This document shows positions 9,489-28,172 of a DNA stretch of 64,000 bases, piece by piece (the first letter of the stretch is position 1; each line of letters begins with the position of its first letter). The notes beneath the pieces are model-generated. The model was not told where the DNA came from and searched no databases. It was given only the letters and a program-made list of their open reading frames with translations. The position numbers and the translations under genes were made by a program. The DNA comes from Nitrosopumilus ureiphilus (GTDB taxonomy: Archaea > Thermoproteota > Nitrososphaeria > Nitrososphaerales > Nitrosopumilaceae), in the NCBI RefSeq assembly GCF_013407185.1, contig NZ_CP026995.1:124001-188000 (forward strand). The letters are read 5' to 3'.

Positions 9489-10439
9489 CTATTTTTTTTC
9501 TGATGTTTCACCTATAAGTTCTGGTTCTTCTTTTTTTATCTGATTATGCATAATCTCTATTGCCTGTTCTATTTCCAAAAGCTTTATTCCCTTTTTCACT
9601 ATTTTTTCACAGTTTAAACATGATTGTAGTGGTCGTATGGCAATTTGCTTTAACTCTTTAGATGAACAAGGTACAATAAAATTATCTAAATATCCAAATG
9701 TTTTTGCTATTTTTTTAGAAAAATCTAATCTATTAATACAAGAAAGACCCGATGTATGAAAAACCCCCTGCATGTCTTTTTTTATCAGCTCTATGATATT
9801 TTCTGCTAAATTGTCTGCTAAAGTAGGTGTACTAAACTGATCATCTACAATTGACAATTTCTGCTTTTCATTTAATTTTTTTAAAATCCATAAAGCAAAA
9901 TTCCTTGTCTTTACTGAATTATCTCTTACTTGAAGATATTTTGAAGGCATCCAACCAAATAAAACACTGGGTCGTAATATCAAATAATTTGAAACTTCAG
10001 AAGCTATTTTTTCGCTTTCTAACTTTGTTTTTCCATAAATATTCACAGGATTGGGTTCATCATCTTCTACATACTGATTCTTCTCTCCTGAAAAAACTGC
10101 ATCAGTAGAAATATGAATAAATTTAGATCCTAATTGTTGTGCAATTTTTGCAAGATTTTTTGTACCTATTACATTAACCTCATATGCCTCTTCTCTGAAT
10201 TGCTCACAATAATCGACGTTTGTCATGGCAGCAGCATTTACAATAATATCTGGTTTTAATTCAAGAATTTTTTGACAATCTTTTTCATCTACAATGTTTA
10301 TTTTTATAATTTCTGTATTTTTAGAGACAATCAAATTTTTGTTATAAGTAGAATAAAGTTCAAAACAACTACCATTTTCTAATAATTTATAGCCTAATAA
10401 ACTACTTCCACCTACTACTAACATTCTTTTTTTATTCAT
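9489..10439 (-). CDS. rmlD: dTDP-4-dehydrorhamnose reductase
   Basis: A 316-residue SDR with GGSSLLGYKL at the N-terminus, HISTDAVFSG, and the catalytic YGKTK pair. The FSTPTLADNLA segment is characteristic of RmlD. It reduces dTDP-4-keto-rhamnose to dTDP-rhamnose, the last step of the pathway. rmlC, rmlB and rmlA follow divergently from 10584, so the four genes form a complete set around one 145-base promoter region. A paralogue (32818-33693) is also present, so this one is assigned rmlD by its position. Confidence 0.85.
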   Translation of the reverse strand: MNKKRMLVVGGSSLLGYKLLENGSCFELYSTYNKNLIVSKNTEIIKINIVDEKDCQKILELKPDIIVNAAAMTNVDYCEQFREEAYEVNVIGTKNLAKIAQQLGSKFIHISTDAVFSGEKNQYVEDDEPNPVNIYGKTKLESEKIASEVSNYLILRPSVLFGWMPSKYLQVRDNSVKTRNFALWILKKLNEKQKLSIVDDQFSTPTLADNLAENIIELIKKDMQGVFHTSGLSCINRLDFSKKIAKTFGYLDNFIVPCSSKELKQIAIRPLQSCLNCEKIVKKGIKLLEIEQAIEIMHNQIKKEEPELIGETSEKK

Positions 10440-10583
10440 TAATTACAAATCAAATTTGGATCTGATAAAAACTTTTTAAATTACATCTTGAGCTTTTTAG
10501 AAAATCGTTTCAATCAAATACACTTTAAAAAAATTCATTAACTAATACTAAACAATATTAACATATAATTTAGTTGATATTAT
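10440..10583. promoter_or_regulatory. Divergent promoter region of the rhamnose genes
   Basis: A 144-base AT-rich gap between rmlD on the minus strand and rmlC on the plus strand. It must contain both promoters. AT-rich TATA-like stretches are present just ahead of the ATG at 10584; no operator repeat was seen. Confidence 0.45.
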
Positions 10584-11090
10584 ATGGATTTACAAATAAA
10601 GAATTATGATCTCGGGGTACAAGTTTTATTTCCTAAAATAAATAATGATGAACGTGGTTTTGTTACTGAAATCTTTAGAAATGATTGGAATGGGTTTTTT
10701 GGACAAGACAAACCCAATCAAATTAACATCTCAAAAAGTAATCCTGGAATCATTCGAGCTTGGCATAGGCATAAAAGAAATCAAGTAGATTTTTTTACTG
10801 TTTTAAAAGGTTCTATGAAGATCTGTGTTTATGATAACAATAAAGAATCAAAAACTTTTGGAAAATTGGTAGAAATTATTGCAGGTGAAGATAACTTACA
10901 AATTATTAAAGTTCCAGGAAATTTTTGGCATGGAACGAAAACTATTGGAAATCAACCCTCTTACACGATTTATTTTATAAATAATTTATACGTTTATGAA
11001 AATCCTGATGAAGAAAGAATTCTTTGGAATGATCCATCTATTATTGATCCTAGAACAAAAAGACCATATGATTGGAATAATGTGAGTTAG
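10584..11090 (+). CDS. rmlC: dTDP-4-dehydrorhamnose 3,5-epimerase (RmlC-like cupin)
   Basis: A 168-residue single cupin domain. DERGFVTEIFRNDW near residue 24, then the GIIRAWHRHKRNQVDFFTVLKG block with the active-site His/Arg cluster, match the RmlC family; bacterial RmlC is about 180 residues. It epimerises C3 and C5 of dTDP-4-keto-6-deoxyglucose. It is separated from rmlB by two bases and shares its operon. A second, more typical RmlC homologue is at 35515-36066, so the exact stereochemistry of either enzyme is uncertain. Confidence 0.82.
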   Translation: MDLQIKNYDLGVQVLFPKINNDERGFVTEIFRNDWNGFFGQDKPNQINISKSNPGIIRAWHRHKRNQVDFFTVLKGSMKICVYDNNKESKTFGKLVEIIAGEDNLQIIKVPGNFWHGTKTIGNQPSYTIYFINNLYVYENPDEERILWNDPSIIDPRTKRPYDWNNVS

Positions 11091-11092
11091 TA

Positions 11093-12094
11093 ATGAAATT
11101 TCTTGTATGCGGTGGTTATGGTTTCATTGGAAGTACGTTTATCAAAAATCACCTGAAAAAATTTCCACAAGATACTATTGTCAATATAGATAATCTCACA
11201 ATAGGTTCAAACAAACTTAATTTATCTGAAATCCACAATCAAAATTATTCCTTCATTAAAGAGAATATGCAAAATGTTACAGAAATTGAAAAACTTTCCA
11301 AAGATGTTGATGTAATAATAAATTTTGCTGCTGAAACACATGTAGATAGAAGTATTGCAAACCCAAAACCGTTTATTGAAACAAATATTCTAGGTACATA
11401 TTCACTTCTAGAATCTTCAAGAAAATATAATAAATTATTTGTCCATATCTCCACTGATGAAATATATGGAGATTTGGAAAATAAAACGTCTTTTAACGAA
11501 GATGATATTCTAAAACCCAGTAATCCATATTCTGCAACTAAAGCTGCAGCTGATTTACTTGTAGGTGCATATAGAAGAACTTATGGAATAGATTGTATTA
11601 TTACAAGATGCACTAATAATTTTGGCCCAAATCAGTTCCCAGAAAAACTTATCCCAAAAACAATTATCCGTGCATTGAAAAATCTTAAAGTTCCCCTTTA
11701 TGGCGATGGAAATCAAATCAGAAGTTGGATTTATGTTTATGATCATGTTGATGCTGTTGACTCTTTAATTAGTAAAGGAAGAATTGGTGAAATTTACAAC
11801 ATTACTGCATGGAATGAAATTTCTAATAAAAATATTGTAGAAAAAACCCTTCAATTTATGGATAAATCTTCTGATTTGATTGAATTTGTACCAGATAGAC
11901 CTGGACATGACAAGCATTACTCTATTGATTCATCAAAAATTAAAAATGAAATTAATTGGAATCCAAAATATGACTTTGATGATGCTTTACATGAAACTGT
12001 AAATTGGTATATTAAAAACAAACTGTGGTGGGAACCGCTAGTTGATGAAAAAACACTTCATCCTCAACCTTGGACATTAAACTGGAATAATTAG
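11093..12094 (+). CDS. rmlB: dTDP-glucose 4,6-dehydratase
   Basis: A 333-residue extended SDR with the NAD loop GGYGFIGS (7-14), the RmlB-specific STDEIYGD motif carrying the catalytic Asp-Glu pair, and NPYSATKAAAD with the Tyr/Lys couple. THVDRSI and NNFGPNQFPEKLIP are also diagnostic for RmlB. It converts dTDP-glucose to the 4-keto-6-deoxy sugar used by RmlC and RmlD. It lies two bases after rmlC and 58 bases before rmlA on the same strand. Confidence 0.93.
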   Translation: MKFLVCGGYGFIGSTFIKNHLKKFPQDTIVNIDNLTIGSNKLNLSEIHNQNYSFIKENMQNVTEIEKLSKDVDVIINFAAETHVDRSIANPKPFIETNILGTYSLLESSRKYNKLFVHISTDEIYGDLENKTSFNEDDILKPSNPYSATKAAADLLVGAYRRTYGIDCIITRCTNNFGPNQFPEKLIPKTIIRALKNLKVPLYGDGNQIRSWIYVYDHVDAVDSLISKGRIGEIYNITAWNEISNKNIVEKTLQFMDKSSDLIEFVPDRPGHDKHYSIDSSKIKNEINWNPKYDFDDALHETVNWYIKNKLWWEPLVDEKTLHPQPWTLNWNN

Positions 12095-12152
12095 AGTTGA
12101 ATTACAAAACAACTAAGATGAATTTAATTATAGATAAAACCGATTTAATGAA

Positions 12153-13220
12153 ATGAAAGGAATTATTTTACATGGAGGACATGGAACTAGATTACGTCCT
12201 TTAACTCATACTGGCCCAAAACAACTTCTTCCTATTGCTAATAAACCAATGTCCGAATATTGTTTAGAATCTTTAAGAAATGCTGGAATTACTGATATTG
12301 CAGTAATAATTGGCGGAATTGGTTCAAACAAAGTACAAGAATATTATGGTGACGGTAAAGATTTTGGCGTAAAATTATCCTATATCACACAAGATTTTCC
12401 AAAAGGAATTGCTCATGCAGTAAGACTCTGTAAAGATTTTGTTGGAAAAGAAAAATTTGTTGTTTTTTTAGGTGATAATATTATTCAAAAAGATATTAAC
12501 GAATATGTGAACGATTTTGTAAATTCAAATGATGCAGCATCTATTCTATTATGTGAAGTTGATAATCCCTCTCAGTTTGGAATTGCAGAAATAAAAAATG
12601 AAAAAATTATCAAATTAATTGAAAAACCTAAAAATCCTAAAACTAACTTAGCTGTTACTGGAATTTATTTTTTAACTCCTATAATTTTTGATCTTATTGA
12701 TAATCTTGAACCTTCATGGAGAAATGAATTTGAAATTGTCGATGCACTTCAAATGTTGTTAGATATTAATAAAAAAATTCGTTATTATATGATAACTGAT
12801 TTTTGGAAAGATACTGGAACACCAGAAGATATCCTTCAAGCCAATAAAATAATTCTTGAAAATATGAAATCTTGTTCTTTTGGAACTAATGATGATACAG
12901 TTGTAATTGAAGGAAATGTTGTAATTGGAGAAGGTACAATAATTAAAAATGGTTCTAAAATAATTGGCCCAGTTATAATTGGAAAAAATTGTATTGTTTC
13001 TGATAATTCGTATATAGGTCCAAACACTAGTGTTGGTGATAACACACACTTATCATATTGCACTGTAAAAAATTCAATTATAATGTCTGACTGTATAATT
13101 GATTGTAATATAAAAATAAAAAACAGTATTATTTCATCCAATTCTAAAATCTCAAAAATTGAATCTAATAATGAAGAAAAAGTTTTCTTACTTGGTGAAG
13201 GCACAAAAATTAATTTATAG
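12153..13220 (+). CDS. rmlA: Glucose-1-phosphate thymidylyltransferase, long form
   Basis: 355 residues: an N-terminal nucleotidyltransferase domain with GGHGTRLRPLTHTGPKQLLP (8-27), and a C-terminal left-handed beta-helix of hexapeptide repeats from about residue 240. The long form with a beta-helix tail is common in archaea and actinobacteria, whereas enterobacterial RmlA is about 290 residues and lacks it. It makes dTDP-glucose for RmlB. It is the last gene of the rmlCBA run and ends 81 bases before a convergent epimerase gene. Confidence 0.87.
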   Translation: MKGIILHGGHGTRLRPLTHTGPKQLLPIANKPMSEYCLESLRNAGITDIAVIIGGIGSNKVQEYYGDGKDFGVKLSYITQDFPKGIAHAVRLCKDFVGKEKFVVFLGDNIIQKDINEYVNDFVNSNDAASILLCEVDNPSQFGIAEIKNEKIIKLIEKPKNPKTNLAVTGIYFLTPIIFDLIDNLEPSWRNEFEIVDALQMLLDINKKIRYYMITDFWKDTGTPEDILQANKIILENMKSCSFGTNDDTVVIEGNVVIGEGTIIKNGSKIIGPVIIGKNCIVSDNSYIGPNTSVGDNTHLSYCTVKNSIIMSDCIIDCNIKIKNSIISSNSKISKIESNNEEKVFLLGEGTKINL

Positions 13221-13301: not shown

Positions 13302-14282
13302 TTAAATCCAATCTGGAACTATATTTTCATGATTTGCTAACCATTCAAAATATTCTTTTATTCCTTGATTCAATGAAATTTTAGGTTCCCAATTAAGATA
13401 TTTTTTCATTAATGTAACGTCTGCATATCCGCCTAATGGATCACCTTTGGGATGTGGTTTGTAGTGAATTGGAACTTCTTCAATATTTTCAAAAACATAC
13501 TTCACAATTTCATTAACCGTTGTTGGTTTTCCTGTTCCTGAATTAAAAAATTTACCATTTGTTGAATCTTTATCTATAGAACGAACTACTGATTCTGCAA
13601 TATCTGCAACATGTGTAAAATCACGAATTTGATTTCCATCTCCAAAAACTGTAATTGGTTTTCTTTTTTTTGCTAACATGGAAAATATGGCAATTGCCCA
13701 ACTATGACTTCCTAATTTGGGAGTTTGTGGAGATCCATAAACGCTAAAAAATCTAATTGAGGTTGTTGGCAAATCATAAAGTTCATTGTATAATCTAGTT
13801 TGTTGTTCTCCCCAATATTTTGAAAGTCCATAATTAGAAACTGGGAAACATGCATCACTCTCTTTAAAGATCTGTCCTTTGGGCTCACCATAAACTGAGG
13901 CCGATGATACAAAAATAAATTTTTGAATCTCTTCTTTTTTACAAATCTCTAGAATATTTTGTGTTGCTTTAACATTCGTTTGAAATTCATCATGTGGATT
14001 TCTAACACATGCACCTACATCTGCTAATGCTGCAGCATGTATAACAACATCATTATTTTTGATTAATTCTGAAATTAGTTCATTGTTGTTAATATCTCCT
14101 TTAACAAATCGCACACTTTCCATATTTCCTACACCATATTCATGCAAATAATCAAATGGATATGCTGAAAGATTATCAATAACAGTAATTTTTGCTTCAC
14201 GTTCATCTAATTTTTTAACTATGTTACTACCAACACATCCAGCACCACCTGTTACCAAAATTGATTTATTTTTAATATTCAT
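13302..14282 (-). CDS. NAD-dependent nucleotide-sugar epimerase (GalE-like)
   Basis: A 326-residue extended SDR with GGAGCVGSNI at the N-terminus, VSSASVYGEP and the catalytic YGLSK. HAAALADVG and the RDFTHVADIA segment are typical of UDP-glucose/UDP-N-acetylglucosamine 4-epimerases. Its start overlaps the end of the PIG-L gene by 11 bases, so the two are translationally coupled. Its substrate is therefore probably the same UDP-HexNAc or lipid-linked HexNAc pool that the deacetylase acts on. Specificity is not determinable from sequence. Confidence 0.82.
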   Translation of the reverse strand: MNIKNKSILVTGGAGCVGSNIVKKLDEREAKITVIDNLSAYPFDYLHEYGVGNMESVRFVKGDINNNELISELIKNNDVVIHAAALADVGACVRNPHDEFQTNVKATQNILEICKKEEIQKFIFVSSASVYGEPKGQIFKESDACFPVSNYGLSKYWGEQQTRLYNELYDLPTTSIRFFSVYGSPQTPKLGSHSWAIAIFSMLAKKRKPITVFGDGNQIRDFTHVADIAESVVRSIDKDSTNGKFFNSGTGKPTTVNEIVKYVFENIEEVPIHYKPHPKGDPLGGYADVTLMKKYLNWEPKISLNQGIKEYFEWLANHENIVPDWI

Positions 14283-14961
14283 GTATGATATTCCTTATTA
14301 TGACAAACGTTTCACATAATTTTTCACCTATTGAATTTCCTCTATATTTAGCAACTGTTTTCAAGGATTCTATGGATCTAGGATGATTTCCAGATCTAAC
14401 TTCATCTTTATAACAATTGTATGCATTAATTTTCAGTTTTAGATCTTGTTCTGTAATTACATTGAATTCTGTCGGATTGAAATTCTCATTTAATCTTCCT
14501 GACCAATTTGTAGATGATGGAACTTCATAACACAAAATTTTTTCTACCCCTTCCCAACTGTTTTTTGTTTTTATTCCTCTTATTTGATGTGGTCTGCAAG
14601 CAACCATTGTAGAATCAAAAACAAATCTATGATCTTGATGTGCATCTCCATAAAAATGAGTATAAACAATTGTAGGTTTAATTTTTACAATAATCTCTGC
14701 TAATTTAGAATTAACTTTTAACTTTGATTCTAAATCAAATTGACCTGATTTACAACCTAACCAAAATAAATTCTCTTTTTTAATATTAAAAACATTAAGC
14801 GCTCTATAAGCTTGTTCTTTTAATTTCGGTTGAATTGGTTTATGACCAACAGAAAATAAAACTATGAAAACATTGTCCCCATTTCTAATATGCTTTGCAA
14901 TAGTTCCACCTGCACCTAACACCTCATCATCTGGATGTGCTCCAATAACAAGAATATTCAT
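14272..14961 (-). CDS. PIG-L family sugar de-N-acetylase
   Basis: A 229-residue LmbE/PIG-L metalloenzyme with the N-terminal zinc motif AHPDDE (8-13) and a downstream HQDH (H108, H111) supplying further ligands. Family members remove the acetyl group from GlcNAc in glycolipids, mycothiol precursors or antibiotics. It overlaps the GalE-like gene by 11 bases. The next gene upstream on the same strand is an LpxD-like N-acyltransferase, so deacetylation followed by re-acylation of the free amine is a coherent pair of steps (inference). Confidence 0.87.
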   Translation of the reverse strand: MNILVIGAHPDDEVLGAGGTIAKHIRNGDNVFIVLFSVGHKPIQPKLKEQAYRALNVFNIKKENLFWLGCKSGQFDLESKLKVNSKLAEIIVKIKPTIVYTHFYGDAHQDHRFVFDSTMVACRPHQIRGIKTKNSWEGVEKILCYEVPSSTNWSGRLNENFNPTEFNVITEQDLKLKINAYNCYKDEVRSGNHPRSIESLKTVAKYRGNSIGEKLCETFVIIRNIIHEY

Positions 14962-15170: not shown

Positions 15171-16121
15171 TTATTTATTATTTTTAATTTTTTCTGGACT
15201 ACCTGTACGATCATATTTTTTTCTAGATGAAATAACTTTTGCTGGTAATCCAAAGGATACTGAATTTTTTGGTATATCTTTAGTAACTACTGAACCTAAA
15301 CCAATTAAAGAATTTCTCCCAACTGTTTTTTGATTTCTTATTCTTGTCCCAATTGATAAAAAAACATTATCTTCAATTATACAACTACCTCCAACAACAG
15401 ACTCTGCAACTATGTAACAATTTTTTCCAATTTTGGCATTGTGTCCAATATGTACTAAATTATCAATTTTTGTTCCATTTCCAATTTTTGTTTCCTCCAT
15501 GATTGCTCTGTCAATACAAGTGTGTGATCCTATTCTGACATTATCTTCAATGACGACACTTCCTATATGTGGAAATTCTTCCCATATCCCTTTTTCATTT
15601 TCTTCAAATCCAAATCCATCATAACCAATAGTAGCAAATGGTTTTATTGTAACATTATTTCCAATACACGTTTTTCCAGAAATTGAAACATGTGAATGTA
15701 TAATAGTATTATTTCCAATAGATACCTCACTCCCAATATAACAATATGCTCCAATATGTACATCTTTTCCGATTAATTTTGTTCTTACATTCGCAGTCGT
15801 GTGTATTCCTTTTAATTCATTATTTAACTGAAAAAATTTTTTGATACAACGAATAAACCATATTCGGGGGTTTTCAACAAAAATTAAAGTAGATTTTTTT
15901 GTTTTAATGTTATTTTTTAAACTAGAATGACATAGAATGACGGAAGCATTTGATTTTTTTATTTCTTCTAATCCTTTTTTTCCTAAATATGTGCAAAATG
16001 AGAATTCATTTTTTTTTGCTGAAGATATAGGCGCATATCCTCTAATTTTAATCTCTTTTTGATTAATAATTGAATATTTTTTTTTAGAAATATAAGATAA
16101 AATTTCTGATAGTAAAATCAT
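15171..16121 (-). CDS. LpxD-like sugar N-acyltransferase (left-handed beta-helix)
   Basis: 316 residues from the ATG at 16121 (a TTG lies three codons earlier). The N-terminal 100 residues resemble the uridine-binding domain of LpxD (GYAPISSAKKNEFSF). Hexapeptide repeats follow, then the LpxD signature CIDRA...KIGNGTKIDNLVHIGHN with the catalytic-type His at about 227. Bacterial LpxD moves a hydroxyacyl chain from acyl carrier protein to the 2-amino group of UDP-glucosamine. Archaea make no lipid A, so a surface-sugar acceptor is likely. ACP and AcpS genes 5 kb away could supply the donor. Confidence 0.78.
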   Translation of the reverse strand: MILLSEILSYISKKKYSIINQKEIKIRGYAPISSAKKNEFSFCTYLGKKGLEEIKKSNASVILCHSSLKNNIKTKKSTLIFVENPRIWFIRCIKKFFQLNNELKGIHTTANVRTKLIGKDVHIGAYCYIGSEVSIGNNTIIHSHVSISGKTCIGNNVTIKPFATIGYDGFGFEENEKGIWEEFPHIGSVVIEDNVRIGSHTCIDRAIMEETKIGNGTKIDNLVHIGHNAKIGKNCYIVAESVVGGSCIIEDNVFLSIGTRIRNQKTVGRNSLIGLGSVVTKDIPKNSVSFGLPAKVISSRKKYDRTGSPEKIKNNK

Positions 16122-16195
16122 ACTTTCCAAAATTTTTCTTACAATTCATTACTTTCAAACTTATTTATTAATTTCCATTTTATTTTGTCAAAATA

Positions 16196-17337: not shown

Positions 17338-18203
17338 ATGAAATATCTGATAAATAATAAAATTATTCATAAGATGTTTCAAAAATTATATTATGAATTT
17401 TATCAAAGAAATATCTATGCACTAATTGGCCCAATCAGATCCTTGCCTGATTTTATAATAATTGGAACAGCTAGAAGTGGAACTACTTCCTTATACTATA
17501 ATATTTGTCAACATCCATGTGTTCTTCCTGCATCATATGATGAAATAGGATTTTTCGATAATAATTTTCATTTGGGTTTGAACTAGTATCGCTCAATGTT
17601 TCCTACACAATTTTCAAAATGGGTTATTAGAAATAAAAAAAATATGCAATCACAGGAGAAGATACACCTTTTTACATTTGGAATCCACTAGCAGCAAAAC
17701 GTATTTCAAAAATTCTCCCAAACGTGAAATTAATTACTCTTTTTAGAAATCCTGTAGATAGAGCTTATTCCAATTATTATCTAGGTATTAGAGCGGGTTC
17801 GGAAAATTTATCATTTGAAGATGCAATTCAAGTTGAATTGACTAGTTTGAAAAATCCTGAAATTGCTTCAGAAAATAATCTTGAAAAATATACTAATCCA
17901 AGATCATATATCGCTAAGGGATTTTATGCAGATCAGCTAAAAATTTGGTTAAAATTATTCCAACATGAACAACTATTCATTACTTCTACAGAAGATTTTG
18001 AATCTAAGCCTCAAAAAACATTAGATGACATCTATGATTTCTTACAAATTCCAAAAAATCTTGTAATAAATCTTGAAAAATATAAAGTATCTTCATATCC
18101 AAAGATGAAAAGTGAAACACGAGAATTTTTAGTTGATTTTTATAAAATACATAATGCTAAGTTATTTAATATGATTGGACGAAAATTTGATTGGGATAAA
18201 TAA
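17338..18203 (+). pseudogene. Broken sulfotransferase gene
   Basis: Two open segments together make one PAPS-dependent sulfotransferase of about 288 residues. The first (17338-17583) holds the 5'-phosphosulfate loop GTARSGTTS (residues 43-51). The second, in another frame, holds the 3'-phosphate motif LFRNPVDRAYSNYY. Between them are two lesions: an in-frame TAG at 17584-17586 where a Trp codon is likely, and a -1 frameshift in the A8 run at 17635-17642. Reading across it restores GEDTPFYIWNPLAAK, joining smoothly to the second segment. Two independent lesions argue for a dead gene rather than recoding. Confidence 0.85.
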
Positions 18204-18234: not shown

Positions 18235-18597
18235 TTGAACTTAGAGTTTGAAAAGCAAATTGAAGATAAACGGGGAAGAATATTATTTCTAAAATTTGGT
18301 AGAAAAAACATTAATCTAATTGAAATCAAGAAGAGTTTTGCAAGGGGTGGACATTTTCATCAAACTGAAACTAGTCATTTTTTGATTTCAGGAAAAATTG
18401 AATATTATACAGAAAATATCAAAACAGGATTAGAAAAAGTTTCAATAATCTCTTCACCTAATATAATTAATGTACAACCTAACATTGCTCATTTACTTAT
18501 TGCTAAAGAAGATTCATTATTTTTTGAAGTCTTTGAAAATTATGAAGATACAGTTTTTCATAAATACAGAAAAATAGTTGAAGATCTAATGAAATAA
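18235..18597 (+). CDS. Small cupin protein, possible sugar keto-isomerase
   Basis: A 120-residue one-domain cupin from a TTG start. ARGGHFHQTETSHFLISGKI (residues 35-54) is a cupin motif 1 and recalls the RGGHAH block of FdtA/WxcM-type sugar 3,4-ketoisomerases. Those enzymes act on dTDP-4-keto-6-deoxyglucose made by RmlB, which is encoded here. It lies 31 bases after the broken sulfotransferase and converges with a hexapeptide acyltransferase, the same neighbour seen in bacterial Fuc3NAc/Qui3NAc clusters. Function is inferred from family resemblance only. Confidence 0.6.
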   Translation: MNLEFEKQIEDKRGRILFLKFGRKNINLIEIKKSFARGGHFHQTETSHFLISGKIEYYTENIKTGLEKVSIISSPNIINVQPNIAHLLIAKEDSLFFEVFENYEDTVFHKYRKIVEDLMK

Positions 18598-18620: not shown

Positions 18621-19151
18621 TCAGTGATCAATTTTCTTTATCACTCTTCCTGGATTTCCTACAACAACACAATAATCTGGTACATCTTTTGTTACTACAC
18701 TTCCAACAGAAATTATGCTATTTTCTCCAATAGTTACGCCAGCTGTAACTATTGAACCTGGAAATAACACTGCACCTGATTTTATTTTTACTTCTGCAAC
18801 TTTTCTAGGAAATTCACCATTTTTTAAAAATAAATTAGCAGCTGGATTGGTATGTGCAAAAACTATTACATTTGAACCAAAAGTAACATTATTTCCAATA
18901 CTCACTAAATGGGGATAAATCAAATCTAATTGGACATATGCAGAAAAATGACAATTTTTTCCAATTTTGACTCCTCTTAATCGTTGGATTTTTGCTGTGG
19001 TTTCTGAATGTGGACATGAATAAGCAATGGAATGCAATATCCACGAACGAAGAAATTTCATCTTCATTCTAAAATTGCCAAAAGTTCCACTATATCCATA
19101 ATATTCCATTAGTTCCTTTTCGTTAACTGAAGTAGGGTTCTCATCTTCCAT
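18621..19151 (-). CDS. Hexapeptide-repeat O-acyltransferase (WcaF/Maa-like)
   Basis: A 176-residue left-handed beta-helix protein with repeats such as IGKNCHFSAYVQL, IGNNVTFGSNVIV and IGENSIISVGSVVTKDVP. It ends in VVVGNPGRVIKKI, the standard tail of maltose/galactoside acetyltransferases and WcaF-type colanic acid acetyltransferases. It probably O-acetylates, or acylates, a sugar of the surface polymer using acyl-CoA. It is divergent from the FkbH operon with 89 bases between, so an acyl-ACP donor is possible but less usual for this subfamily. Confidence 0.77.
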   Translation of the reverse strand: MEDENPTSVNEKELMEYYGYSGTFGNFRMKMKFLRSWILHSIAYSCPHSETTAKIQRLRGVKIGKNCHFSAYVQLDLIYPHLVSIGNNVTFGSNVIVFAHTNPAANLFLKNGEFPRKVAEVKIKSGAVLFPGSIVTAGVTIGENSIISVGSVVTKDVPDYCVVVGNPGRVIKKIDH

Positions 19152-19240
19152 ATGCTTATTCTATTCAAGCTTAATTTTAAATCTAAACTTATCTGATTAT
19201 AATTACCGATAACTCAATCATAAACAACAAATACTAAAAA

Positions 19241-21007
19241 TTGAAATATCATTATATATTGGATGAAAAGAAATTATCGTACTATTTAACAAAAAGTAAA
19301 TCATTGGAAAATAATTTTGAAAAAAGTACTAGAATAGCAATTTTAAGTAGTTTTACTCTAAATGGAATAGAAGAAATTTTTAAAGTAAAATGTGCTGAGA
19401 AAAAAATTAATTGTGTAACTTATCTAGGTGGTTATAATCAATATAATCAAGAAATCTTAAATTCTGAAAGTAAACTTTATCAATTTAACCCTGATATTGC
19501 ATTTCTAATTTTAGATACTAGAAGTCTTTTAGGCGATTTGTGGTATTCTCCATATTCACTTGATGCAAAACAACGAAAAGAATTTATCGAAAAAAAATTT
19601 GAGGAAATAAAAAACTTAATTCAAACATTTATGAGTATATCAAAATCAAAACTTATTATTTCTAATTTCCCTATTCCAACAAAATCTAATTATGGAATTT
19701 TTGAGACAAAATCAAAATTTGGTTTTCAAAAAATGATTGCTACATTAAATGAATATTTACAAGATTTTATTTCAAATTTGGATCCTGTATACTTGTTTGA
19801 TATGAATGGTTTTGTAACTAGACATGGTGAAAATAATGTTTTTGATCCAAAACAGTTTCTTTTTGGAGATATCAAAATTTCTCTTGACTTTATTCCTCAT
19901 TTAACAAATGATTTGATTGGATATGTAATCGCAACTTTGGGTTTGGCTAAAAGATGTATTGTCTTAGATTTGGATAATACATTATGGGGTGGAATTGTTG
20001 GTGAAGATGGTTTTGATGAAATTAAATTAGGATCTGGACCTCCTGGAAATGCCTTTGTCGAATTTCAAAAATATCTATTGGGACTATATGATCGTGGAAT
20101 TCTACTTGCCATAAATAGTAAAAATAATCCAGATGATGCACTTGAAGTAATTGAAAAACATCCAGACATGATCCTTCGAAAAAAATATTTTGCATGTATG
20201 AAAATTAATTGGAATGATAAAGTATCAAATATGAAAGAAATTTCAGAAGAACTAAATTTTGGCCTTGAAAATTTTGTTTTTATTGATGATGATCCGATAA
20301 ATAGAGAATTTATGAAATCCAGCCTTCCACAAGTTTTAACTGTTGATCTCACCCCGGATCCTTCAAAACATGTAAAAATTTTAGAAGAAATGAATGATTT
20401 TAATGTCTTAAAAATAACTTATGAAGATTCTAAAAGAGGTTTGATGTATTCTCAACAAAAAGAAAGAAAAGATTTTGAAAAATTATCTTCCAATCTTCAA
20501 GATTTTCTTAAAAATATGGAATTAAAAGTAACTATAAAAAAAGCTGATAATTTCACTATTCCTAGAATTTCCCAATTGATTCTTAAAACTAATCAGTTTA
20601 ATCTAACTACAAAAAGATATTCATTAGAAGATATCCAAAAATTTTCTCAGGATGACAATATGTTGATTGGATGTGCTCAAGTTGAAGATAAATTTGGAGA
20701 TAATGGAATTGCTGGTGCATTTATTGTTCAAAAAAATGGGACAAAAGAATGGATATTAGACACTTTTCTTTTGAGTTGTAGAGTAATGGGACGTGAAATT
20801 GAAAAAAGTATCCTTGGATATATTGTTAAAACAGCAAAAGATTCTGGTGTAGAAAAAATCAAGGCAAATTTTATTCCAACACAAAAGAATAAACCTATTG
20901 AAAATTTCTTACCTGATTGTGGATTCAAAAAACAGGATAATTCCTGGATAATTTTATTAAATGAAACATTTCAAATACCTGATTTTATTACAGTTGAAGA
21001 AAAATAA
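19241..21007 (+). CDS. FkbH-like HAD-superfamily protein (acyl-ACP loading enzyme)
   Basis: 588 residues in three parts: an N-terminal SGNH-like domain (about 1-225), an FkbH-type HAD domain with VLDLDNTLWGGIVGEDG (DLDNT at 243-247) and FIDDDPINREFM, and a C-terminal GNAT-like domain (about 430-588, ISQLILKTNQFNLT). Characterised FkbH enzymes take 1,3-bisphosphoglycerate, remove the phosphate and load D-glyceryl onto an acyl carrier protein. The ACP is the next gene, overlapping by one base (TAATG). TTG start; a TATA-like GATTATAAT lies about 45 bases upstream. Such enzymes are familiar from bacteria; in an archaeon this one suggests transfer. Confidence 0.85.
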   Translation: MKYHYILDEKKLSYYLTKSKSLENNFEKSTRIAILSSFTLNGIEEIFKVKCAEKKINCVTYLGGYNQYNQEILNSESKLYQFNPDIAFLILDTRSLLGDLWYSPYSLDAKQRKEFIEKKFEEIKNLIQTFMSISKSKLIISNFPIPTKSNYGIFETKSKFGFQKMIATLNEYLQDFISNLDPVYLFDMNGFVTRHGENNVFDPKQFLFGDIKISLDFIPHLTNDLIGYVIATLGLAKRCIVLDLDNTLWGGIVGEDGFDEIKLGSGPPGNAFVEFQKYLLGLYDRGILLAINSKNNPDDALEVIEKHPDMILRKKYFACMKINWNDKVSNMKEISEELNFGLENFVFIDDDPINREFMKSSLPQVLTVDLTPDPSKHVKILEEMNDFNVLKITYEDSKRGLMYSQQKERKDFEKLSSNLQDFLKNMELKVTIKKADNFTIPRISQLILKTNQFNLTTKRYSLEDIQKFSQDDNMLIGCAQVEDKFGDNGIAGAFIVQKNGTKEWILDTFLLSCRVMGREIEKSILGYIVKTAKDSGVEKIKANFIPTQKNKPIENFLPDCGFKKQDNSWIILLNETFQIPDFITVEEK

Positions 21008-21246
21008 TGTCTGAAAAACTTTATGGAATTATTGCAAAAGTTATGGATATACCCATCAATGAAATTAATGACAATTCAAGTCCAGAAACAATTCCTAGTT
21101 GGGATTCTTTTAATTCTTATATTTTGTTGGATGAATTAGAGACTGAATTTAAAACTGAATTTACAATTGATGAAGTTACGGAAACAAAAAATGTTTCCGA
21201 TATCAAAAAACATCTAAAGAATCATGGGATTATTTTATATGACTGA
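21007..21246 (+). CDS. Acyl carrier protein
   Basis: A 79-residue four-helix ACP with the phosphopantetheine attachment site WDSFNSY (Ser34). The DSF variant is common in ACPs paired with FkbH. The protein is acidic (ELETEFKTEFTIDEVTE after the site). Its start overlaps the FkbH stop (TAATG) and its end overlaps the MaoC-like gene. Archaea generally lack fatty-acid-synthase ACPs, so this one is probably dedicated to a glycan acyl modification. The AcpS-type activating enzyme lies two genes downstream. Confidence 0.87.
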   Translation: MSEKLYGIIAKVMDIPINEINDNSSPETIPSWDSFNSYILLDELETEFKTEFTIDEVTETKNVSDIKKHLKNHGIILYD

Positions 21247-21667
21247 AATTCCATCTGAACATAATTTTGAAGATCTTTTTATAGGTCAAAAAATAACTTT
21301 TTCTCAAAAAATAAATGAATCAATATTAACTGACTTTGCAACAATCAGTGGAGATTTTAACCCTCTACATATGAATAAGGAATATGCTGCAAACACAAAT
21401 TTTGGAAAAAGAGTTTGTCATGGAATGCTTTTAGCCTCTTTTTTTTCACAACTTGTTGGAATGTATTTACCAGGAAAAAATTCATTATATTTTTCACAAT
21501 CATTGAATTTTAGAAATCCCTGTTATTTAGGAGATGAAATAGTTGTAGAAGGTGAGATTATTGAAAAAAAATCTGCCTTAAAATTAATTACTCTGAAAAC
21601 AACTATTCATAATAAAACTGGAAAATGCTTAATCGATGGAATAGCAAAAGTTATTGTGAGAGAATGA
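21239..21667 (+). CDS. MaoC-like (R)-specific hydratase/dehydratase
   Basis: 142 residues from the ATG at 21239 (another ATG at 21224 would add five residues and lengthen the overlap). It is a hot-dog-fold protein with the hydratase motif FATISGDFNPLHMN, where Asp and His are catalytic, followed by CHGML. MaoC enzymes hydrate enoyl-CoA/ACP or dehydrate the (R)-3-hydroxyacyl form. It overlaps the ACP gene by eight bases, so its substrate is probably the ACP-bound acyl group. Chain length and direction of reaction are unknown. Confidence 0.82.
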   Translation: MTEIPSEHNFEDLFIGQKITFSQKINESILTDFATISGDFNPLHMNKEYAANTNFGKRVCHGMLLASFFSQLVGMYLPGKNSLYFSQSLNFRNPCYLGDEIVVEGEIIEKKSALKLITLKTTIHNKTGKCLIDGIAKVIVRE

Positions 21668-21691
21668 TTTTCAAATTTTGATCAAAATAAT

Positions 21692-22048
21692 ATGATTGAA
21701 AATTTTGGTGTAGGAATTGATATAATAGATATAACACGATTTGAAAAAACATCTTTTTCAAAAAAACCAAATTTTTACAAGAAACTATTCCTTCCATCTG
21801 AAATCCAATACTGTTTAAAATTCAAAAAACCTGCAGAACATTTTGCTGGAAAATTTGCTATTAAAGAATCTCTAAAAAAATCAATTCTTGAGCCTATATC
21901 TTTTCTTGATATTGAAACTTACCATTCAAATACAAAACTAAAGATAAAACTTCTAAATGATTTAAATAAGAAATATACAGTTTTAGGTTCCATTAGCCAT
22001 GAAAAGAACTTTGCAATTGGTATTGTAATTTCTGAAAAACTAAATTAG
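21692..22048 (+). CDS. acpS: Holo-[acyl-carrier-protein] synthase
   Basis: 118 residues, the usual AcpS length. VGIDIIDITRFEK carries the metal-binding Asp (D10), FAGKFAIKESLKK the conserved Glu (E59), and SISHEKNFAIGIVI the C-terminal substrate loop. It transfers 4'-phosphopantetheine from CoA to the serine of the ACP encoded 450 bases upstream. A dedicated copy inside the operon suggests that the whole ACP module moved as a unit. It starts 24 bases after the MaoC-like gene and ends the operon 20 bases from a convergent gene. Confidence 0.88.
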   Translation: MIENFGVGIDIIDITRFEKTSFSKKPNFYKKLFLPSEIQYCLKFKKPAEHFAGKFAIKESLKKSILEPISFLDIETYHSNTKLKIKLLNDLNKKYTVLGSISHEKNFAIGIVISEKLN

Positions 22049-26286: not shown

Positions 26287-27240
26287 CTAATATTTTTGTT
26301 TATTCTTCCATTCCATTACAATTTCCTTATAATTTATTTTCATTATGTCTTCATTTGGATAAAGCCATTCATCATTGATCTCTTTTTTCAAAATTCTTTT
26401 TGACTCTAAATTGCCATCCAAAACTAAATCAACAATTAATGAATTTGCTGCTATGTTGAAACTATTACTATCATCTAGAATAATTATATTTTTAGTATTT
26501 TTAACATCTTCGTAAATTTTCTTCCAATTTGTCTTAATAGGTGAATTTATGTTGAACAAGCTAGCATTAATTCCGTTATTCTTAAACTCTAAAAATAATT
26601 TATTTGCTTGAGGAAATGAAAAATTAAACGAAACAATTGTTATATCGTTCCCCTTTTCATATTGAAAAACTGTTTTCTCATCATTAATGAATAAAATTTG
26701 TTTAGGTTCAATTATATCTTCTTTGAATAATCTTTGACTTATTGTTATAATTCTAAATCCTGGTTCTATCAACTTTGATTTTAAAATTTCATCAGCATCT
26801 ATTTTATTAGTAATACAATAACCCGGTATACGTGCTATGGAACAAAATTCTGCAAAATTATTAAGACTAGATTGAGGACCTTGATATCCATTATCTACAG
26901 TAATTGGAAAAATTGTAAAAGATGCATCTTTTCCTAATTTCAAACTACGTATGATATTAAAAGTATTTACTAGATGATCTATGCCTAACAATAAAAAATC
27001 TAATTGTTTCATAAAGAATATTGAGGAAATATCATTAATCATCATTCCAAATCCAAATCCACATAAGGAATTTTCAGAATTTGTTGAATTAATAATTCGT
27101 CCACTTTTTGGTATTGATAAACCTCGAGTCATGCCACCAATACACGATCCTGCTGAAACATTTTGCCCAAATATTACTAATTGTTCATGTTTTGACACTT
27201 CTTCTCGAAGTAGATTATTTATTAATTCAATATACTTCAT
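26287..27240 (-). CDS. E1-beta-like subunit of a thiamine-diphosphate enzyme
   Basis: 317 residues, matching the transketolase-pyrimidine plus C-terminal domains of 2-oxoacid dehydrogenase E1 beta subunits. NSENSLCGFGFGMMI carries the Glu (E56) that activates the thiamine ring; MKQLDFLLLGIDHLVN and NGYQGPQSSLNN match the family's conserved middle. It overlaps the alpha gene by four bases (ATGA). No lipoyl E2 or E3 gene is nearby, which argues against an ordinary dehydrogenase complex and suggests a stand-alone C-C bond-forming or decarboxylating enzyme in sugar synthesis. Confidence 0.77.
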   Translation of the reverse strand: MKYIELINNLLREEVSKHEQLVIFGQNVSAGSCIGGMTRGLSIPKSGRIINSTNSENSLCGFGFGMMINDISSIFFMKQLDFLLLGIDHLVNTFNIIRSLKLGKDASFTIFPITVDNGYQGPQSSLNNFAEFCSIARIPGYCITNKIDADEILKSKLIEPGFRIITISQRLFKEDIIEPKQILFINDEKTVFQYEKGNDITIVSFNFSFPQANKLFLEFKNNGINASLFNINSPIKTNWKKIYEDVKNTKNIIILDDSNSFNIAANSLIVDLVLDGNLESKRILKKEINDEWLYPNEDIMKINYKEIVMEWKNKQKY

Positions 27241-28172
27241 TTCGTTTCCTCTTCCAATTCATTTCTAATTATATCAGATAATTTATTGAGTTCATCAATT
27301 CCAAGTAAATCAATTAATACAAAAATTGGATCAGAGTTATTTTCTTTGATTAATGCCGGACATGTTGTAACATCAATTGTGGGTGCAGGACCTGCATGAT
27401 AATTAATGAACTTCCCATCAGGGTTTTGATCATTAGTCATTATCCAATCCCCTAGTGTGTTTACCATAACTTCAATACAAATTAATTCGTTATTTTTTTT
27501 AGATTGCTCTTTTAATCTTGTTAATTCCTCAATATAATTAAGTGGATTATTTCCTGAAAGTTTGACATATTTTACATCATAAGATTTAGAAAATGTTTCT
27601 AAATCAATATGTATTCTTCTTTCAGATATTTTAGTAGCCATAGACCATTCATTGTTTTCAATAATTAACAAACCACTTAGATTCAAACTTTTAAACATAA
27701 GAATACTTTCATGAAAACTTCCCTCTTCAAGAGAGCCATCTCCACCTAAAACAATTGCTATTCCATCTTTATGTTTAATTTCTAAAGACATTGCAATACC
27801 CACTGCAACAGAAAAATTGTTTCCTAGAATACTGGATGTGTAAATTATTCCCTTGGCAGGATTAATCAAATTCATGGATCCAGATTTCCCACAATCTAAT
27901 CCTGATGTTTTAAGATAATATTCATCTAAAATAGGGTTTAGTTTTCCAAGACGTGCTAAATTATATGCAATATTTCTATGAGTTAGAATCAATTTATCTT
28001 CATTATTCATTATTTCATCGATAGCTACTGCAATAGTCTCATGTCCAAAAGCTAAATGAATGGGGATTTTGAATTCTCCAGTCTTGTATTTTTCATTAAC
28101 TATCATTTGTGCAATTCGAATTCGAAGAATTTTTTTTGAAATAGAACTTAGATCATTCATGACATTACACAT
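27237..28172 (-). CDS. E1-alpha-like subunit of a thiamine-diphosphate enzyme
   Basis: 311 residues. The thiamine-diphosphate motif begins GGDGSLEEGSFHES (144-157) and ends in the ENNEWSMAT segment (172-180), as in pyruvate/branched-chain E1 alpha subunits; THRNIAYNLARLG is also family-typical. An ATG at 28160 would drop four residues. It overlaps the beta gene by four bases and the upstream SDR gene by a few, so SDR, alpha and beta are coupled. ThDP enzymes in bacterial sugar clusters can add two-carbon branches to keto sugars (yersiniose type); a similar job is inferred. Confidence 0.8.
   Translation of the reverse strand: MCNVMNDLSSISKKILRIRIAQMIVNEKYKTGEFKIPIHLAFGHETIAVAIDEIMNNEDKLILTHRNIAYNLARLGKLNPILDEYYLKTSGLDCGKSGSMNLINPAKGIIYTSSILGNNFSVAVGIAMSLEIKHKDGIAIVLGGDGSLEEGSFHESILMFKSLNLSGLLIIENNEWSMATKISERRIHIDLETFSKSYDVKYVKLSGNNPLNYIEELTRLKEQSKKNNELICIEVMVNTLGDWIMTNDQNPDGKFINYHAGPAPTIDVTTCPALIKENNSDPIFVLIDLLGIDELNKLSDIIRNELEEETK

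Follow-up and report, generated by a model that had tools for sequence, protein, structure and literature searches.

The ammonia-oxidizing archaeon Nitrosopumilus ureiphilus carries, in a surface-glycan island of its chromosome, a five-gene cassette built around an acyl carrier protein (ACP). The cassette lies in a 64,000-nucleotide stretch (contig NZ_CP026995.1, positions 124,001 to 188,000 of the forward strand), hereafter the window, to which all positions below refer. Gene content and linkage make it reasonably probable that these genes form a self-contained carrier-protein module, which would make a three-carbon acyl group and transfer it to a sugar of the surface glycan. The genes, their motifs, their linkage, the selection acting on them and the lack of a ketosynthase match in the genome are read directly from the DNA. 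The loading, tailoring and transfer steps are proposals, which we weigh below together with the alternatives.

Four of the genes lie in tandem on the plus strand, intact and spaced as a preliminary description of the window had stated, and profile searches gave a name to each. The first (19241..21007) encodes FkbH, with an FkbH_N domain, a HAD-IIIC phosphatase domain and a C-terminal GNAT-like domain. It is followed by ACP (21007..21246; 79 amino acids (aa)), with the phosphopantetheine serine Ser34 in a DSF motif, by MaoC, a hot-dog hydratase/dehydratase (21239..21667), and by an AcpS-type phosphopantetheinyl transferase (21692..22048; 118 aa). FkbH and ACP overlap by 1 base at the junction TAATG, and a gap of 24 bases separates MaoC from AcpS. 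The MaoC open reading frame (ORF) opens at 21224, and its overlap with ACP is 8 bases if translation starts at the second ATG, at 21239, which is the start used by relatives. The FkbH start codon is uncertain, with two TTG candidates, one at 19241 and the other some 18 bases further on. The preliminary description regarded these four genes as a complete module; the genes stand, but a fifth had been overlooked, encoding a left-handed beta-helix (LbH) acyltransferase of 176 aa (18621..19151, minus strand), which is divergent from FkbH and is proposed to pass the unit carried by ACP to a sugar. From the ORF layout, the 89 bp between the two divergent genes (19152..19240) are the presumed promoter region for both; a scan of this region for bacterial-type promoters scored no better than shuffled sequences, and the promoter and terminator scan was uninformative. 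A search for FkbH/ACP/AcpS co-occurrence, as the preliminary description had proposed, found the three together in 16/16 other loci of the host family, with MaoC in 14 of these. For all five cassette genes, dN/dS in close pairs is 0.04-0.27. Since the same genes recur together and have such low ratios, we conclude that the cassette is not a chance assembly.

FkbH domains load D-1,3-bisphosphoglycerate and dephosphorylate it, which leaves a glyceryl group on a carrier domain (PMC8949500, PMC7489565). The window protein belongs to this family, scoring 311.5 bits against TIGR01686 (6e-93; curated cut-off 146.65) and matching PF21211 at 4.7e-20. Residues Asp243, Asp245, Lys327, Asp349, Asp350 and Cys513 are invariant in an alignment of 98/98 relatives, and the Cys513-Arg514 pair of the C-terminal part is likewise invariant in up to 98 relatives. 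Alignments of eight congeneric cassettes also retain the HAD residues and this pair, together with ACP Ser34, MaoC Asp39 and His44, and AcpS Asp10 and Glu59. In a predicted model (pLDDT 82), the first two domains match structure 3slr, and there are separate matches to GNAT folds of the size of the C-terminal domain; the modelled folds would suit a phosphatase-plus-acyltransfer enzyme. ACP adjoins FkbH in 58 of 65 bacterial loci and in 31 of 32 loci from archaea or the Candidate Phyla Radiation (CPR).

The carrier and its activating enzyme were also assigned by profile. ACP scores 23.5 bits against PF00550 (cut-off 20.8), an assignment that is weak alone and unambiguous with an orthologue profile, and its closest solved chain is 2lml, a putative acyl carrier protein. 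AcpS scores 42.4 bits against PF01648 (cut-off 25) and 56.2 bits against TIGR00556 (cut-off 45.35); it falls just under the equivalog cut-off of TIGR00516 (56.5 versus 59.8 bits), and we treat it as AcpS-like. The residues on which the preliminary description relied were present when we re-read them: Ser34 is kept in 36/36 close homologues of ACP, and Asp10 and Glu59 are invariant in 31/31 AcpS sequences. AcpS Lys63 is invariant too. Searching the complete 2.17-Mb host genome with a family orthologue profile, we found this single ACP, which a whole-genome scan with PF00550 alone at an E value of 0.001 had overlooked. A profile search also identified a single AcpS in the genome, the one located in the cassette. 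ACP fails the class used in fatty acid synthesis (TIGR00517; 16.9 versus 70.45 bits), and profile searches of the host genome returned no match to a ketosynthase or to a malonyl transferase or acyltransferase (AT) domain. With a lone ACP, a lone AcpS and no match to a ketosynthase or a malonyl transferase in the genome, the cassette does not belong to a fatty acid synthase; we rejected fatty-acid or polyketide synthesis as its role because neither a ketosynthase nor an AT was matched in the genome. AcpS is encoded near FkbH in 27/32 archaeal or CPR loci versus 1/65 bacterial loci (Fisher p = 7e-18, for loci that are non-independent), and at least three of the five archaeal or CPR loci without a nearby AcpS are interrupted by contig ends. 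This distribution indicates that AcpS is carried where a housekeeping AcpS is absent.

MaoC scores 68.6 bits against PF01575 (cut-off 27; 4.9e-19) and matches the PhaJ structure 1iq6 at 8.9e-34. Its Asp39 and His44 align with the D...H motif of PhaJ and are found in 37/40 and 39/40 aligned sequences, respectively. Among bacterial FkbH loci, a short-chain dehydrogenase/reductase (SDR) of the ketoreductase type is present in 17 of 23 with MaoC versus 2 of 42 without it (p = 7e-9), and MaoC-SDR fusions are frequent. Because bacterial FkbH-MaoC sets usually include a ketoreductase, often as a fusion, we read MaoC as a candidate dehydratase of glyceryl-ACP; this habitual pairing is the main evidence pointing to dehydration and reduction. 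The set that would form a lactyl group (FkbH, dehydratase and ketoreductase) occurs in many bacteria and in two archaeal cassettes, G008 (ACP-MaoC-SDR-FkbH) and G131 (FkbH-ACP-MaoC-SDR-AcpS), and an SDR also lies in a decayed copy in G035. The window cassette has no SDR and thus does not hold the full set. We considered a ketoreductase acting in trans from elsewhere in the host genome and rejected it, since we found only generic SDRs, the best of which is about 23% identical to the cassette-type ketoreductase.

The fifth gene product, LbH, scores 40.7 bits against PF00132 (cut-off 27) and has hexapeptide repeats, beta-helix fold matches and a histidine, His100, that is invariant in 28/28 sequences; its dN/dS against the relative in G056 is 0.04. 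Its nearest solved structures are maltose and galactoside O-acetyltransferases, and the dTDP-sugar N-acyltransferases QdtC and AntD are also matched. The predicted model of LbH, built from six sequences (pLDDT 80), is of fair quality, as is that of FkbH. Of 16 other family loci, 15 have LbH next to the cassette, and the remaining one, in G092, has a PglD-type sugar acyltransferase in its place. In G001 and G094, which have the order AcpS-ACP-ANL ligase-LbH without FkbH, LbH follows the ligase, and we therefore associate LbH with the carrier protein and not with FkbH. Its position makes LbH the probable transferase of the ACP-bound acyl unit to sugar, and its occurrence beside ACP loci, whichever of the two loaders they have, suggests that it uses acyl-ACP and a sugar acceptor.

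We propose the following sequence of steps. From family membership, AcpS would turn the cell's sole ACP into holo-ACP, and FkbH would take D-glyceryl from 1,3-bisphosphoglycerate and dephosphorylate it in its HAD domain to give glyceryl-S-ACP, with handover to ACP probably through Cys513 of the GNAT-like C-terminal domain. Because glyceryl-ACP is a 3-hydroxyacyl thioester, MaoC, which is of the (R)-hydratase type, could remove the 3-hydroxyl group to give 2-hydroxyacryloyl-ACP, the enol of pyruvoyl-ACP, as comparison of the cassettes suggests. Where a ketoreductase is present, as in two archaeal relatives and many bacteria, the product may be lactyl-ACP; in the host species, without a cassette SDR, it may be pyruvyl, lactyl formed via an unrelated reductase in trans, or glyceryl. 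On the same comparative grounds, LbH would then attach the unit, at an amino or a hydroxyl group, to a nucleotide sugar or to a glycan intermediate within this dTDP-sugar island.

Several points weigh against this proposal. The host genome has no cassette-type ketoreductase, so a lactyl product there is uncertain, and a pyruvyl group in amide or ester linkage would be unusual. The best matches of LbH are acetyl-CoA enzymes; its homology fits O-acylation and N-acylation alike, and the acceptor is only a proposed one. Several archaeal relatives lack MaoC, so MaoC is not essential to the core. Of what the preliminary description had claimed, an ACP-bound small-acyl module in the surface-glycan island of an ammonia oxidizer holds (the host genome encodes archaeal AmoA), with MaoC as an optional part. 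The counted loci are related by descent and transfer, so that Fisher p-values overstate their independence, and the bacterial loci are those of the best 80 matches to a thaumarchaeal profile. Loading, tailoring and transfer are all steps that we infer, and the identity of the acyl group is putative.

Among the alternatives, the one that survives best is unlikely but merits serious weighing: the transferred unit stays glyceryl, and MaoC inverts C2 by dehydration and rehydration to give L-glyceryl, as a VOC protein would. In G199 and G283, a methylmalonyl-CoA-epimerase-like VOC protein (TIGR03081, below the equivalog cut-off) occupies the exact position of MaoC in otherwise identical cassettes, and the two are near-exclusive overall (1/43 versus 17/55, p = 2e-4), as expected if they are alternative tailoring steps. 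This shared slot and the lack of a reductase in the window cassette favour a glyceryl product, as does a bacterial example, flagellin whose glycans bear derivatives of glyceric acid (pseudaminic acid with dimethylglyceric acid, PMC7099621). However, MaoC in FkbH loci typically comes paired or fused with a ketoreductase, which fits a keto product that is then reduced. Moreover, we know of no established epimerization by a MaoC enzyme.

We regard as less likely still a scheme in which MaoC acts on another thioester (for example, converting crotonyl to (R)-3-hydroxybutyryl, from the autotrophic 3-hydroxypropionate/4-hydroxybutyrate cycle), ACP bears a 3-hydroxyacyl group and FkbH serves a separate step. 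Thaumarchaea make crotonyl-CoA, MaoC is nearest to PhaJ-type (R)-enoyl-CoA hydratases, and AntD, an LbH enzyme crystallized with 3-hydroxybutyryl-CoA, is among the fold-search matches. Yet MaoC, FkbH and ACP share one overlapping operon in nearly all family loci, bacteria with different carbon pathways also have MaoC next to FkbH, and we found no ketosynthase or other CoA-to-ACP loader. A module that supplies a small secreted metabolite of the tetronate or methoxymalonyl kind, and not a glycan, is quite improbable. The best characterized FkbH-ACP pairs do work in polyketide and peptide pathways (PMC7489565, PMC8949500), but the cassette lacks a ketosynthase, an AT and a FabH-like gene, the genome has no ketosynthase or AT match, the flanks are sugar-nucleotide and glycosyltransferase genes, and the LbH partner is of the sugar-acyltransferase type. 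Lastly, we find it hardly credible that the cassette is recently acquired, non-functional bacterial baggage: its patchy spread (intact in 8/95 species of the genus), the decayed copies in G035 and G452 and the AT-rich island would fit, but its frames are intact, its dN/dS values are low, its catalytic residues are all kept and its FkbH belongs to a thaumarchaeal clade of 21 members.

The genes around the cassette provide its probable sugar context and lie outside the cassette proper. Genes for dTDP-sugars at 9489..13220 comprise an RmlD-like gene (9489-10439, minus strand; TIGR01214 just under cut-off) and, on the plus strand, an RmlC-like gene (10584-11090; TIGR01221 well under cut-off), RmlB (11093-12094; TIGR01181 over cut-off) and RmlA (12153-13220; TIGR01208 over cut-off). 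The island also holds sugar genes of the heptose and sialic-acid types, glycosyltransferases and a flippase-like membrane protein that matches no Pfam family, and it is AT-rich (GC content 0.27 versus 0.32-0.36 in two other stretches of the host genome). Over 20 loci, window included, the commonest other neighbours were the RmlB family (17), RmlA (16), polysaccharide deacetylase (16) and GT2 glycosyltransferase (15).

Three nearby genes were tried as module members and rejected. An LpxD-like gene (15171-16130, minus strand) and the PIG-L deacetylase gene beside it (14272-14961, minus strand) are missing from the otherwise syntenic island of G056, and a cupin-like gene (18235-18597) is present in G056 yet outside the recurrent set. 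The LpxD-like protein, an N-acyltransferase by homology, has an LpxD N-terminal domain and scores over the cut-off of PRK00892. LpxD enzymes normally use acyl-ACP, and this one may be a second user of the cassette ACP. A sulfotransferase-like ORF (17338-18203, plus strand) is seemingly interrupted in the window (82 + 159 aa) and is a single 288-aa ORF in G056 (L021:12083-12949). Elsewhere in the island, beside a sugar epimerase gene, a split E1-type thiamine-diphosphate enzyme (alpha and beta subunits; 26287-28172, minus strand) could possibly extend the carbon chain of a sugar.

The preliminary description called the module unexpected in ammonia oxidizers. It is indeed present there, though not as a one-off, being an accessory cassette across the family and other archaea. 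Within the genus, FkbH is intact in 8/95 species, decayed in G035 and apparently severed by a contig end in G032; AcpS is found in the nine FkbH genomes and four others, with ACP adjoining in each. In a sample of the phylum, 17/398 genomes exceed the FkbH cut-off. The decayed cassette of G035 (L027:8834-13721) has FkbH in three pieces, a truncated ACP, MaoC and AcpS, then an MBOAT gene, and indicates that loss of the cassette is possible. A quick maximum-likelihood tree of 63 FkbH proteins, rooted at its midpoint and with some long branches, unites 21 sequences from the host family and Nitrososphaerales, the divergent G008 excepted, in a thaumarchaeal clade (SH-aLRT 99); in the same tree, Asgard sequences cluster with another family of the host phylum. 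Genera are interleaved inside the thaumarchaeal clade, which suggests exchange of the cassette.

AcpS also occurs without FkbH, beside a more distant ACP, in G001, G094, G086 and G062 (L151, L152, L153 and L154, respectively). An adenylating ligase (PF00501) follows ACP in G001, G094 and G062, and the G086 contig ends at ACP. The G001 locus also has an SGNH-like protein and an MBOAT. In G062 (L154:9875-12245), genes of the LuxE and LuxC types, for an acyl-protein synthetase and an acyl-CoA reductase, come after the ACP and ligase genes, suggesting that a carrier-bound acid is reduced to an aldehyde in that archaeal genus. G015 has a second ACP of the same family, on a contig other than that of its FkbH cassette, in a Dlt-like arrangement with a DltD-like protein, a cassette-type SDR and an MBOAT (L146:7510-11232). 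The host itself encodes an MBOAT and a 678-aa protein at about 1.03 Mb (L155:4811-8351), about 885 kb from the cassette, with no carrier beside the MBOAT; the 678-aa protein has pentapeptide repeats, and its N-terminal part resembles the DltD-like protein of G015. MBOAT genes are also found in congeners without any detected ACP.

We compared the cassette with known systems. Like the FkbH-ACP pairs of tetronate and methoxymalonyl pathways (FK520 type, Mad7/Mad8, Mad14/Mad12; PMC7489565), it has an FkbH-type HAD protein and a stand-alone ACP; it differs in lacking a ketosynthase, a FabH-like protein and an acyl-CoA dehydrogenase, in having MaoC, AcpS and LbH, and in its archaeal host and glycan island. 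The flagellar glycan locus of Campylobacter jejuni contains an FkbH-domain gene, cj1302 (PMC7099621); FkbH in a surface-glycan locus, as set out in the preliminary description, is borne out for an archaeon but has a bacterial precedent as a setting. Flagellin of a strain with cj1302 carries dimethylglyceric acid, which that paper ties to cj1295 and not to cj1302. The locus differs in being bacterial and in serving sialic-acid-like flagellin sugars, and a dedicated AcpS is not reported for it in the portion of the paper considered (PMC7099621). Bacterial FkbH-ACP loci with MaoC and SDR, often fused (Rhodoferax L053, SAR116 L060, Omnitrophota L051), share FkbH, ACP and a MaoC of the same type; they have a ketoreductase and no AcpS, whereas most archaeal loci have AcpS and no ketoreductase. 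LbH shares its fold and conserved histidine with sugar acyltransferases (maltose/galactoside O-acetyltransferase, QdtC, AntD, PglD), but is only about 25% identical to them, is always beside a carrier-protein locus here, and has acyl-ACP, not acetyl-CoA, as its proposed donor. The Dlt system (DltA ligase, DltC carrier, DltB MBOAT and DltD) is similar in its carrier-based surface acylation, and related archaea have ligase-ACP-MBOAT variants; the window cassette falls outside the Dlt class, having FkbH and LbH with no ANL loader, MBOAT or DltD adjoining.

Archaea are usually said to lack ACP, and one study of a thaumarchaeon says so explicitly (PMC6138646). A literature search that covered journals open without subscription found no paper that deals with archaeal FkbH or with a module of this kind, built on ACP, in ammonia oxidizers, and none that links FkbH to O-antigen, to polysaccharide or to bryostatin, whose loading module offers a parallel that we do not count as evidence. 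FkbH-ACP pairs are already known. The novelty lies in an archaeal version that is self-sufficient, having AcpS and LbH of its own, and in the way its parts can be exchanged. We tentatively suggest that archaea, ammonia oxidizers included, may have a modular, fatty-acid-independent carrier system that decorates surface glycans. A dedicated ACP and AcpS would be combined with exchangeable loaders (FkbH or an adenylating ligase), tailoring enzymes (MaoC, MaoC with a ketoreductase, or an epimerase-like VOC protein) and acyltransferases (LbH, PglD-type or MBOAT), so that strains would differ in the acid on their surface, be it glyceryl, lactyl, pyruvyl or another.

In the complete genome of the archaeon N. 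ureiphilus, a single ACP and a single AcpS were detected, both linked to a surface-glycan cassette rather than to lipids. This suggests that archaea can acquire the chemistry of carrier proteins when the enzyme that activates the carrier comes with it. The cassette offers a concrete route to an unsuspected surface chemistry, each step of which is open to work with purified proteins; cultured species with the cassette seem to exist, Nitrosotenuis chungbukensis among them. The predicted surface group would vary between strains of abundant nitrifiers, whose surface glycans may bear on their encounters with phages and grazers and on access to ammonium.

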